Source: Faecalibacterium hattorii (lineage in GTDB: Bacteria; Bacillota; Clostridia; Oscillospirales; Ruminococcaceae). From it: a stretch of 64,000 nucleotides of DNA. The notes under the pieces were generated by a model. The model worked only from the letters and a program-made list of their open reading frames with translations. It searched no databases and was not told the DNA's origin. The DNA is taken from assembly GCF_003287455.1 (NCBI RefSeq), contig NZ_PRLC01000004.1, forward strand, positions 62,001 through 126,000, read 5' to 3'. The position numbers were made by a program, and so were the translations under genes. Positions 49,809 to 53,474 of the stretch are shown here, one piece after another (within the stretch, counting starts at the first letter, position 1; the number at the start of each line of letters is the position of its first letter).

Positions 49809-51611
49809 TCAGACCTCCATCAGAATGGGGAGGATCATCGGGCTGCGCTTGGTGCGGCGGTAGATATAGCTGCTCAGCGCCTCGCGCACACGGGTCTTGA
49901 CGCTGTTCCAGTCGCGGACGTGTTCGTCCACGCAGCGGTCCAGCGCGTTTTCGACGATGCTCTGGGCACCGTCCATCAGGCTCTCGTTCTCCCGCACATA
50001 GACGAAGCCGCGGCTGACGAGGTCCGGCCCTGCCAGCACCTTGCCGGTCTTGCTGTCCACGGTGGCGACGATGATGACCAGACCATCCTCGGACAGGTGC
50101 TTGCGGTCCCGCAGGACCACATTGCCCACATCGCCGACACCGAGGCCGTCCACCATGACGGCACCGGCGGTGACCGGCTCGCCCAGCTTGATCTCATCCT
50201 TGGTCAGGATGACGTTGGAGCCGTTCTCCGCAATGAGGATGTTGCTGGTGGGGATGCCGAGGCTGGCGGCGGTCAAAGCGTGCTTTTTCAACTGCTTGTA
50301 CTCGCCGTGCACCGGCAGGAAATACTTGGGTCTGGTCAGGGTGAGCATCAGCTTCTGCTCTTCCTGACAGGCGTGGCCCGAAACGTGGACGTCGTACATG
50401 CTCTCGTAGATGACTTCCGCGCCCAGCAGCAGCAGACCGTTGACGATCTTGGTCACGCTCTTCTCGTTGCCGGGGATGGGGTTGGCGGAGATGATGATGA
50501 AGTCACCGGGGCCCACGCGGACCTGACGGTGGCTGCAGGATGCCATGCGGGAGAGGGCGCTCAGCGGCTCGCCCTGACTGCCGGTGGTGATGAGGACCAC
50601 CTGCTCCGGCGGGTACTGGTTCAGCTCTTCCACGCTGATGAGGGTGCCCTCCGGGATGTGCATATAGCCCAGCTCCTGCGCCATGGCCGTGTTGTTGACC
50701 ATGCTGCGGCCGCTGAAGGCCACCTTGCGGCCATCCTCCACCGCCAGATCAATGATCTGCTGGACACGGTAGATGTTGGACGCAAAGGTCGCGATGATGA
50801 TCCGCTTGTTCCGGGCGCGGGCAAACAGGTTCCGCACACCGGCGGCCACCTTCTGCTCGGTGGCGGTAAAGCCGGGGCGCTCCGCATTGGTGGAGTCGCT
50901 CAGCAGGGCCAGCACGCCCTTCTGGCCGTACTCGGAAAGGGTGGTCAGATCGGTGACGCCGCAGGCCAGCGGGGTATAATCGATCTTGAAGTCGCCGGTC
51001 TGGATGATGGTGCCGGCGGGGCTGTCGATGGCAAAGGCCACCGAATCCGGGATGGAGTGGTTCACATGGATGGGTTCCACGGTGAAGCAGCCCAGCTTGA
51101 TCTTCTGCTTCGGGGTGATCTCCACGAACTTGGTCTTGCCCGCAAGGCCGAACTCTTCCAGCTTGTTCCGGATCAGGCCGCAGGTCAGGCGGGTGCCGTA
51201 GATGGGCAGGTCGAACTTCTGCAGCAGATAGGGGATGCTGCCGATGTGGTCCTCATGGCCGTGGGTGATGAGCAGACCCTTGATCTTATCCTTATTCTGC
51301 ACCACGAAGGCGAAGTCCGGGATGACCAGATCCACGCCGTACATGTCGCTGTCCGGGAAGACAAGGCCGCAGTCCACGATGATCATATCGCCGCAGCACT
51401 CGTAAACGGTCATGTTCTTGCCCACTTCACCGAGGCCGCCCAGCGGGTAGATGTGGATGGGCACAGCGGCCTCCTTGGGCTGCTGAGGGCGGCGGGGACG
51501 CCGCTGATAATAAGGCCGGCGGGTGCGGGGCCGCTTTTCGCCGGTGGATTCGCTCGCGTTGTTGTTTCTGCTCTGAGCCATTGCCTGACTCTGTTCTTTT
51601 GCCTGTGCCAT
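49809..51611 (-). CDS. rnj: Ribonuclease J
   Basis: A 600-residue metallo-beta-lactamase/beta-CASP nuclease with 5' exo- and endonuclease activity, central to mRNA decay and rRNA maturation in Firmicutes. A basic, Arg/Pro-rich extension of about 50 residues (RPRTRRPYYQRRPRRPQQP) precedes the core. The zinc site is THGHEDHIGSIP, with NHSIPDS, GTIIQTGDFKID and the beta-CASP SHRQVRVG region downstream. The C-terminal domain is complete. The ATG at 51611 has a strong SD (TTGGAGGTACGA). A long leader precedes it. Confidence 0.96.
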   Translation of the reverse strand: MAQAKEQSQAMAQSRNNNASESTGEKRPRTRRPYYQRRPRRPQQPKEAAVPIHIYPLGGLGEVGKNMTVYECCGDMIIVDCGLVFPDSDMYGVDLVIPDFAFVVQNKDKIKGLLITHGHEDHIGSIPYLLQKFDLPIYGTRLTCGLIRNKLEEFGLAGKTKFVEITPKQKIKLGCFTVEPIHVNHSIPDSVAFAIDSPAGTIIQTGDFKIDYTPLACGVTDLTTLSEYGQKGVLALLSDSTNAERPGFTATEQKVAAGVRNLFARARNKRIIIATFASNIYRVQQIIDLAVEDGRKVAFSGRSMVNNTAMAQELGYMHIPEGTLISVEELNQYPPEQVVLITTGSQGEPLSALSRMASCSHRQVRVGPGDFIIISANPIPGNEKSVTKIVNGLLLLGAEVIYESMYDVHVSGHACQEEQKLMLTLTRPKYFLPVHGEYKQLKKHALTAASLGIPTSNILIAENGSNVILTKDEIKLGEPVTAGAVMVDGLGVGDVGNVVLRDRKHLSEDGLVIIVATVDSKTGKVLAGPDLVSRGFVYVRENESLMDGAQSIVENALDRCVDEHVRDWNSVKTRVREALSSYIYRRTKRSPMILPILMEV

Positions 51612-51873
51612 TCGTACCTCCAAAAAATCAATCACAAAACGCAGGCACGCCCATTTTTCCGGGCGGCCTGTCCTGTTGAAGAAGCGGGCTAGCTCAGCCG
51701 CCTCCATCGAAACCATCGTATAGAATTCAGCATTCCAGCGTGTTTTTCACACTGCCGGGTCGGTGCTGCAAAGCCTTGTGCAGCCAGTCAGTCCATCTGT
51801 TCGATGCGACCGCGGCGCGGCTGTGCAGCCACCTGAGCGCACCCCTCCGGCGCGCCCCTATACGCATTTTGTT
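51612..51873 (-). promoter_or_regulatory. Long GC-rich 5' leader of the RNase J gene
   Basis: About 260 bases of transcribed leader lie between the promoter and the ATG. It begins with self-complementary GC blocks (GGCGCGCC, GCCGCGCCGCGG, GGCTGCACAGCC). An in-frame ATG at 51716 lacks an SD. No protein gene or recognised RNA family is seen. Confidence 0.45.
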
Positions 51874-52008: not shown

Positions 52009-52473
52009 ATGAAACAAGTTGAAGTTTATACCGACGGCGCATGCAGCGGCAACCCCGGCCCCGGCGGCTGGGGCGCGGTGCTGCGCTACCGCTTTCACGG
52101 CAAGGTCTACGAAAAGGAGCTTTCCGGCGGGGACGATTCCACCACCAACAACCGCATGGAGCTGACGGCCTTCATCGAAGCGCTGCGCCAGCTCAAGGAG
52201 CCCTGCGAAGTCCGCCTTTGCTCGGACAGCCAGTATGTCATCAACGGGCTGGAGAAGGGCTGGGCGAAAGGGTGGAAGCGCCGGGGCTGGAAAAAATCCG
52301 ATGGCTCCCCTGCCCTGAACCCCGACCTGTGGGAACAGGCGCTGGAGCAGGAAGCCCGCCACAAGATCACCTACGTCTGGGTCAAGGGCCACGCCGGCCA
52401 CCCGGAGAATGAGCGCTGCGACCAACTGGCCGTGGCCCAGAGCCAAGCACACGGAGGGAGACAAGGACGATGA
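52009..52473 (+). CDS. rnhA: Ribonuclease HI
   Basis: A 154-residue enzyme cutting the RNA strand of RNA-DNA hybrids. The catalytic carboxylates are visible: the Asp in [16 protein letters not shown], Glu in [10 protein letters not shown], Asp in [10 protein letters not shown] and Asp in NERCDQLA; the His loop GHAGHPENE is present. It is close to the E. coli RnhA length and has the basic-protrusion helix ([14 protein letters not shown]). SD AGGAG. The downstream gene overlaps its stop by four bases. Confidence 0.97.
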
Positions 52474-52994
52474 GCGACACATTTTTGCCCGGAAACGGGT
52501 TCGATACCTACGAAGAGCAGGATAAAGTCTTGGTGGGCCTCGGCAGTGGCAGAGGCTGCCGGGCAGCGGTCCGCATTTTGCAGCAGCAGGGGTTCGCCGT
52601 CGCGGGCGCAGTGGTCCGCCTTTCCGCCGAGGACGACACCGTTGCCGCCGCGAAGGAGGCCGCCAAGGCCCTCGGCATCCAGTGCATCACCCTGAACGCC
52701 TCCGAGCTGGCAAGCCATCTGGCCGAGGAGGCTGTCCCCTCCGACCTGCGCTTCCCCGCCCTGCTGGCGGCGGCAGACCGGCTGGGCATCCAGTACATCG
52801 CCACCGGCCACCACGCGCGGGTGGAGACGGATGCAGAGGGCGTGAGCCGCATCTGCCCCGCCGCCGACCCGGCCAGCGACGAGAGCGCCGCGCTTGCCGC
52901 TCTGCCGCAGGAGACGCTGGCCCGGCTGATCTTACCGCTGGGCGAGTTTTCCCCCGAAGAACTGGACGATCTGGCAGAAGAGCTCAAGTTCTGA
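52470..52994 (+). CDS. Degenerate MnmA-like protein lacking the active site
   Basis: A 174-residue protein that aligns by eye with the N-terminal domain of the tRNA 2-thiouridylase MnmA: DKVLVGL at the PP-loop strand, [14 protein letters not shown], then [27 protein letters not shown] and [18 protein letters not shown]. The SGGxDS PP-loop is replaced by GSGRGC (residues 25-30), the segment carrying TPNPxxxCN and its catalytic Cys is absent, and the protein stops before the second Cys and the tRNA-binding domain. Thiolation is therefore not expected. The reading frame is intact, overlaps rnhA by ATGA, and has an SD-like AAGGA, so it is probably expressed. Confidence 0.75.
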
Positions 52995-53019: not shown

Positions 53020-53062
53020 AAAGAGGCCCTGAACCGTTTGGTTCAGAGCCTCTTATTTTTTA
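53020..53062. terminator. Bidirectional terminator between the MnmA-like gene and mgsA
   Basis: AAGAGGC-C-CTGAACC (53021-53035) pairs with GGTTCAG-A-GCCTCTT (53040-53054), followed by ATTTTTT. Confidence 0.88.
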
Positions 53063-53066
53063 TCTC

Positions 53067-53474
53067 TCAGCCATTCTGGGGATGGACGATATCGCGCCAA
53101 TCGAGGTCGCCGCGCTCCAAGCCGTGAATGAGCACTTCGGCGGTGGCGATGTTGGTGGCCAGCGGGATGTTGTGGACATCGCACAGGCGCAGCAGGGTCA
53201 TTTCGTTGGGTTCACTGGGCTTGGCGTTGATGGGGTCGCGGAAGAACAGCAGCAGATCGACCTCGTTGCAGGCGATGCGGGACGCGATCTGCTGGTCGCC
53301 GCCCTGAACGCCCGCGAGGAAGCGCTGGACCTGTAAGCCCGTCGCCTCCGCGATCATCTTGCCGGTCGTACCGGTGGCCACCAATTTATGCTGGCTCAAA
53401 ATCCGGCAGTACGCCGTACAGAACTGTACCATCAGCTCTTTTTTGGAGTCATGCGCAATCAGTGCAATCGTCAT
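53067..53474 (-). CDS. mgsA: Methylglyoxal synthase
   Basis: A 135-residue enzyme converting dihydroxyacetone phosphate to methylglyoxal and phosphate, a bypass of lower glycolysis under phosphate shortage or sugar excess. Catalytic residues fall in [11 protein letters not shown] (D60) and [11 protein letters not shown] (D80); the phosphate-binding ATGTTGKMI is intact. SD GAGAGG. It stands alone between two hairpin structures, with its own promoter. Confidence 0.96.

Follow-up and report, generated by a model that had tools for sequence, protein, structure and literature searches.

Downstream of rnhA, a clade of Faecalibacterium keeps a shortened MnmA that has lost its active site and is held by purifying selection. 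We call its 174-residue product mini-MnmA, a single-domain relict encoded at 52470..52994 on the plus strand of the window (the whole stretch of 64,000 nucleotides analysed here). It descends from MnmA, retains the MnmA fold in structure models, and its constraint has shifted away from the former active site; a similar reduction is seen in another genus. Regarding function, we give an even chance to the reading that this reduced native rnhA-linked MnmA would act through protein contact as a pseudoenzyme, probably in the sulfur relay.

The gene and its relationship to MnmA

The short gene (174 codons, ATG start) starts inside the stop codon of the upstream rnhA, which encodes RNase HI (52009..52473, plus strand), the four overlapping nucleotides being ATGA. 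Downstream there is an intrinsic-terminator hairpin (53021..53054, plus strand; -23.3 kcal/mol, z -6.3) followed by AUUUUUU. A simple consensus terminator scan listed nothing despite this plain hairpin, and the single site reported by a promoter scan lies upstream of the RNase J-like gene, on the minus strand. An earlier, sequence-only reading of this DNA had pointed to an open frame, the overlap and a clean terminator, and all three were found. Two conserved neighbours flank the locus, both on the minus strand and both named on the assumption that their own sequences identify them: an RNase J-like gene upstream, which we take to be rnj (49809..51716), and a presumably mgsA-like gene downstream (53067..53474).

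The same reading had proposed descent from MnmA, and here profile searches, PDB matches, fold, tree and synteny agree. Pfam PF03054, the tRNA_Me_trans HUP domain, matches mini-MnmA with 59.3 bits against a cut-off of 20.6, and the best PDB sequence matches are four distinct MnmA/TrmU sequences (E 1.4e-13 to 3.5e-12). Four MnmA equivalog models match it partially and far under their cut-offs; TIGR00420 gives 49 bits against 236.95 and PRK00143 gives 63.3 against 284. Because the middle of the protein is deleted, 4 of 5 MnmA profile matches are split into an N-terminal and a C-terminal stretch with separate scores.

The loss of the active site, also proposed earlier, is evident at three places. 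The PP-loop SGGVDS of full-length relatives reads GSGRGC (52542..52559, plus strand). The TPNPCxxCN segment is gone, the approximate deletion site being a variable linker at about residues 81-93 (52710..52748, plus strand); with it went the NPxxxCN segment, the site of E. coli Asp99 and Cys102, both catalytic according to PMC11784392. Finally, the protein stops where E. coli MnmA has residue 187, ahead of the second catalytic Cys (E. coli Cys199) and of the central and C-terminal domains; according to PMC5372745, a variable segment of MnmA (187-215) starts where the models of mini-MnmA end. These losses are common to 14/14 short forms of the genus. Mini-MnmA is the MnmA HUP domain without active-site elements: it has in common with MnmA/TrmU (TIGR00420, PRK00143; PDB 2der, 2hma) the N-terminal HUP fold, the descent and the locus occupied in sister species, and it differs in lacking the PP-loop, the NPxxxCN segment, the second Cys and the central and C-terminal domains, and in scoring under every matched equivalog cut-off.

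AlphaFold2 predicted the same HUP fold both from an alignment of 79 mixed rows (mean pLDDT 68.5, pTM 0.60) and from 15 short forms alone (pLDDT 70.1, pTM 0.61), namely the 14 of Faecalibacterium and that of G054, a genome of another genus described below; the confidence of both models is moderate. Among the chains listed, both are closest to MnmA (2hma, Z 18.9 and 18.4; 2der_A, Z 16.9 and 16.0), so that the structural match proposed earlier is recovered even from short forms alone, and both end at E. coli MnmA residue 187. Matches to ThiI, argininosuccinate synthase, LarE, QueC and YcfA have lower Z scores, and no family is excluded thereby. The stand-alone M. jannaschii protein 3k32, annotated as predicted subunit of tRNA methyltransferase, resembles mini-MnmA in fold (Z 11.6 and 11.9) and, with its 191-196 residues, in size; it differs in being archaeal and in having just 19-22% identity to it. 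The conserved N-terminal tail LPGxGFDTYExQDxV (residues 1-20; codons at 52470..52529, plus strand) is also present in the full-length rnhA-linked MnmA. Its residues 1-15 or 1-16 have pLDDT mostly below 50, and residues 1-15 are below 50 in the short-form-only model. The tail is probably unstructured, and its conservation at low pLDDT is compatible with a binding peptide.

Distribution in Faecalibacterium and a single reduction

The short form, of 170-180 aa, is present in 14 of 31 Faecalibacterium genomes, in all cases open, at the same place and with the same losses. The gene is neither specific to one strain nor accompanied by frameshifted relatives, as had been considered earlier, and its recurrence together with the 4-nt rnhA overlap in 14/14 of these genomes means that mini-MnmA is not a chance frame. 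In 16 of the 31 the corresponding rnhA locus holds a full-length MnmA with SGGVDS (that of G025 reaches 236.0, the cut-off being 236.95), and in G018 the MnmA at this locus is cut off at the contig end. The PP-loop SGGxDS is found in 0/14 short forms and in 16/16 full forms plus the cut G018 fragment. The loci are collinear, with the RNase J-like gene, rnhA, mnmA or the short form, and the mgsA-like gene. Names are attached to 7 of the 14 short-form loci (four F. prausnitzii, F. longum, strains I4-3-84 and I4-1-79) and to 12 of the 16 full-form loci (An121, F. gallinarum, other species with bird-pointing names, and MAGs); we label the short-form clade the F. prausnitzii group.

A second, intact MnmA is encoded in 16 of the 31 genomes: all 14 with the short form, which answers the earlier suggestion to look for a full-length mnmA elsewhere, and G019 and G026, in which both copies are intact. 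Among the 17 genomes that lack the short form, nine are less than 90% complete, and the absence of a second MnmA is less certain there. The window's own genome has one intact mnmA (L001), between genes that we take from their own sequences to be cca and tcdA, and an intact mnmA occupies this position in 14/14 short-form genomes; in G019 and G026 the second mnmA is not between cca and tcdA.

Several minor observations concern these loci. Of the second mnmA copies of G019 and G026 (L035 and L048), the one of G019 adjoins a nifS-like gene with 48% identity and the one of G026 is near a weaker nifS-like match of 30%. Between the window's genome and the 13 other short-form genomes (L001, L034, L036-L047), the cca-like gene has 57-69% identity, mnmA 84-93% and tcdA 90-97%. 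In L112 (3531-5076), about 1.5 kb separate the mgsA-like gene from the short gene and hold a long minus-strand ORF with a signal-peptide-like start. One genome contains two rpoB copies on separate contigs (G010:C1 and G010:C45; L145, L172), perhaps a mixed assembly.

All 14 genomes with the short form fall into a single clade of an rpoB tree that covers 27 genomes (99.9/98; here and below, tree supports are read from splits). Similarly, the MnmA tree joins the 14 short forms in one group (100/100), nested in the rnhA-linked Faecalibacterium MnmAs (98.6/95) and closest to 13 of the 16 full forms (77.8/91). In a tree of RnhA plus RNase J rooted with outside genera, G019, G020 and G026 fall outside the eight other Faecalibacterium sampled, which have short or full forms (99.7/99). 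As for the second MnmAs, those of all 14 short-form genomes group with that of G026 (99.9/100), and the one of G019 joins them at 80.2/93.

Full and short forms alternate at rnhA and an intact second mnmA is present in 14/14 short-form genomes, so mini-MnmA is best read as what is left of the native MnmA after a single reduction in a lineage that had a spare. As the deletions and losses are shared, the reduction predates the whole short-form clade. The simplest story would be a two-copy ancestor with differential keeping, in which the rnhA-linked copy was kept on one branch, and the F. prausnitzii group reduced that copy and retained the other. In this sense, the native rnhA-linked mnmA would have been reduced once at the base of the group, and the second, cca-linked full MnmA would do the chemistry.

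Purifying selection and the shift of constraint

Selection was estimated with a one-ratio codon model that used the rpoB topology. For the short gene, with 162 codons in 14 genes, it gives an omega of 0.136, with 2dlnL of 497 against omega=1. Four partly overlapping subsets, two of them nested, give 0.097-0.132, and among four close species the value is 0.098. For comparison, the intact MnmA of these species has an omega of 0.053 and their rnhA one of 0.019; the full rnhA-linked MnmA, in 10 species, has 0.067. Tree length is 6.97 substitutions per codon for the short gene versus 3.40 for the intact MnmA. As the short gene changes faster than the intact copy, its constraint is real but relaxed.

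A rate about twice that of the intact MnmA and an omega about 2.6 times higher would also suit a slowly decaying pseudogene whose frame is open merely from youth or GC-rich DNA, a reading which we consider extremely improbable. It is opposed by the omega of 0.136 with its 2dlnL, by the value of 0.098 in four close species, and by the common deletions and losses, which put the reduction before the whole clade. Furthermore, in a neutral simulation along the gene's own tree, without indels, at most 11 of 14 frames were open in 3000 runs, and 14 was never reached. The decay reading is refuted on present data, and the earlier view that the gene is maintained rather than decaying is borne out (dN/dS of 0.14, with 0.05 for the intact copy; 14/14 open frames versus 11/14 or fewer simulated). 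Constraint from an antisense gene was considered as well and rejected: a short gene has 0-5 stops in its minus frames, one of these frames is stop-free in 7/14, and the sense frame alone is clean in 14/14.

We then compared the residues of both forms. Ninety-nine columns are invariant in the 16 full forms; 44 of them are unchanged in 14/14 short forms and 21 are never kept. The latter include S31 of the PP-loop, H54, R136/Q138/Y140 of RDQSY, and C89, N90, P91 and K94, for which the alignment near the deletion is approximate. The basic residues R144, K162, R166 and R170, also among the 21 and invariant in 16/16 full forms, are replaced in 14/14 short forms (R170 by Lys in some), and each of the seven former PP-loop positions 25-31 shows 3-5 different residues among short forms. 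Over 175 shared columns, K+R drops from 15-19 in full forms to 9-14 in short forms, and net charge from -5..-12 to -12..-17. By comparison, the short forms keep L6, P7, G10, D12, T13, Y14, E15, Q17 and D18 of the tail, as well as core positions and a large part of the RILQQQGF helix, and five columns are fixed to residues absent from the 16 full forms (V49, L51, A81, A143, A144).

Segment omegas, which are rough because the segments are short, describe the same change. In full forms the TPNPC segment is the tightest (0.005), followed by the PP-loop segment (0.015); the latter has 0.155 in short forms. The tail has 0.044 in short forms (0.063 with a 16-codon cut) versus 0.065 in full forms, and residues 83-127 are second to it in short forms, with 0.070. 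Constraint has moved from the active site to the N-terminal tail and the core. Tail conservation need not mean a new function, since the values for the active enzyme's tail (0.065), for the 16-codon cut in short forms (0.063) and for residues 83-127 (0.070) are alike. An RNA-level cause of this conservation was discarded as unlikely, tail changes being mainly synonymous (omega 0.044, 6.2 substitutions per codon).

This pattern also bears on two other explanations. According to one of them, constraint would act merely against misfolding or aggregation of a protein co-translated with rnhA and devoid of a function of its own. Many kept positions are core hydrophobic and the frame is coupled to rnhA, as this would predict; however, the constraint on the predicted-unstructured tail equals or exceeds that on the core, and gene loss or a fixed early stop occurs in 0 sampled members of the short-form clade, and we hold such an origin of the constraint to be unlikely. 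A similarly low probability is assigned to an enzyme or ligand binder with new chemistry in a remodelled HUP pocket. The kept fold, the five newly fixed columns and the strong constraint on residues 83-127 speak for it. Against it, the five new residues are small or aliphatic, there is no new invariant polar cluster, and the loop around the old pocket is variable.

The nifS-nifU neighbourhood and a putative role in sulfur relay

A second short form was found outside the genus, in Oscillospiraceae bacterium STD2_12 (G054; L121/L130), represented by one draft genome, 86% complete and the sole one of its genus examined. This form of 161-172 aa is without the TPNPC segment and the C-terminal part, still reads NGGIDS in the PP-loop and, given that motif, may still bind ATP. 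It lies directly behind nifS and nifU and starts about 1.9 kb from rnhA, which is located upstream with the RNase J-like gene; the genome also has an intact second MnmA. In the MnmA tree it sits on a long branch (1.39) and its placement is unreliable. The tree of RnhA plus RNase J unites Faecalibacterium (98/98) and places G054, together with the one outgroup, apart from the 16 other sampled places (94.8/96); other deep forks are weak. Since full forms occur on the lineages between, the reduction in G054 is most simply independent, and constitutes a second, apparently independent case. Among the listed rows of 297 family and 394 order genomes, G054 was the only further short form outside the genus, part of the rows being assessed from the length of the open frame, a criterion under which a short gene can escape notice (genus frames reach up to 321 codons). 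The same rows contain one more short frame, in G525, apparently at a contig edge.

In Gemmiger and Ruthenibacterium the order is rnhA-nifS-nifU-mnmA with the full enzyme, and several other loci have nifS-nifU-mnmA. In some relatives (L065, L071, L077) rnhA is immediately before mnmA. As nifS-nifU keeps the gene apart from rnhA in Gemmiger, in Ruthenibacterium and in G054, all of which still have rnhA in the neighbourhood, direct contact with rnhA is probably secondary, and nifS-nifU-mnmA is probably the older order. For this reason, the link to RNase HI seems incidental.

Proteins with a HUP fold commonly bind nucleotides, and the sequence-only reading had suggested that this one could be a nucleotide- or RNA-binding regulator working with RNase HI. 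Besides this general property, the 4-nt rnhA overlap in 14/14 short-form genomes and the presence of rnhA near the G054 form are in its favour. Nevertheless, a meaningful tie to RNase HI is not supported: full-length MnmA occupies the same place in the genus and in other genera, nifS-nifU separates the two genes elsewhere, and direct adjacency of reduced forms to rnhA, seen in 14/14 Faecalibacterium, is not found in G054, 1.9 kb away. The binding part of the idea is weakened in Faecalibacterium by the unconserved former PP-loop in the 14 short forms, the lost K+R and the replaced R144, K162, R166 and R170, and it keeps some ground in G054 through NGGIDS. As a whole, we judge this regulator quite unlikely.

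The pseudoenzyme reading agrees with what is typical of that class: in mini-MnmA the catalytic residues are lost, the fold is retained and purifying selection acts, which suggests a pseudoenzyme with a putative regulatory or scaffolding binding role. What remains would be a folded HUP domain without active site plus a conserved, probably unstructured tail, and its function would be protein-protein contact, with no catalysis. MnmA receives its sulfur from a cysteine desulfurase (PMC5372745, PMC11784392), and a direct desulfurase-MnmA interaction in B. subtilis is described in PMC5372745. The likeliest partners would be those of the ancestor, either NifS-NifU, the pair of cysteine desulfurase and scaffold, or the MnmA copy that is still active. 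Docking to the donor or to active MnmA is conceivable for a relict that keeps core and tail of a MnmA with relatives encoded beside NifS/NifU, even with the ATP loop and the tRNA domains gone. By occupying or presenting a docking surface, mini-MnmA could tune the sulfur supply to tRNA U34 thiolation. In a literature search covering titles and abstract openings, with few subscription journals or preprints, a MnmA-derived paralogue without active site was not found among the matches listed.

If this reading is right, a common gut bacterium would contain a conserved MnmA-derived pseudoenzyme. The genus also offers a natural experiment, since the locus still holds the full enzyme in sister species and two others have both copies intact; because of this, the step from enzyme to non-enzyme is directly testable, and the comparison may show which MnmA surface binds the sulfur donor. 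A broader and more tentative possibility, about which we are rather doubtful, is that mini-MnmA represents a new type of regulatory subunit in sulfur trafficking: in bacteria with two MnmAs, one copy would be repeatedly cut to a donor-docking domain controlling how the desulfurase's sulfur is split between tRNA thiolation and iron-sulfur clusters.

The sulfur relay is supported by the nifS-nifU-mnmA order in relatives and by the position of the G054 short form right behind nifS-nifU. In this respect, the mnmA relatives of the relict, often found behind nifS-nifU, resemble the Gram-positive cysteine desulfurase-MnmA pairs (yrvO-mnmA; here nifS-nifU-mnmA); unlike such pairs, the relict is without thiolation residues and Faecalibacterium has nifS-nifU elsewhere. 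In the loci read, NifU is not at the mini-MnmA locus of this genus. A strong NifU match is present elsewhere in the genome in 14/14 short-form genomes, with a NifS match beside it in 3/3 short-form loci examined (L177-L179). Across the genus, 22 of 31 genomes have a strong NifU match, and the nine without one all have the full form. This counts against the relay reading: these nine, among the 17 genomes that lack the short form, have MnmA and no strong NifU match, so the full form does not need NifU there. Additionally, in G026 a minus-strand transporter-like membrane ORF (L115:1741-2946) lies between rnhA and the full mnmA, in the place taken by nifS-nifU in other genera.
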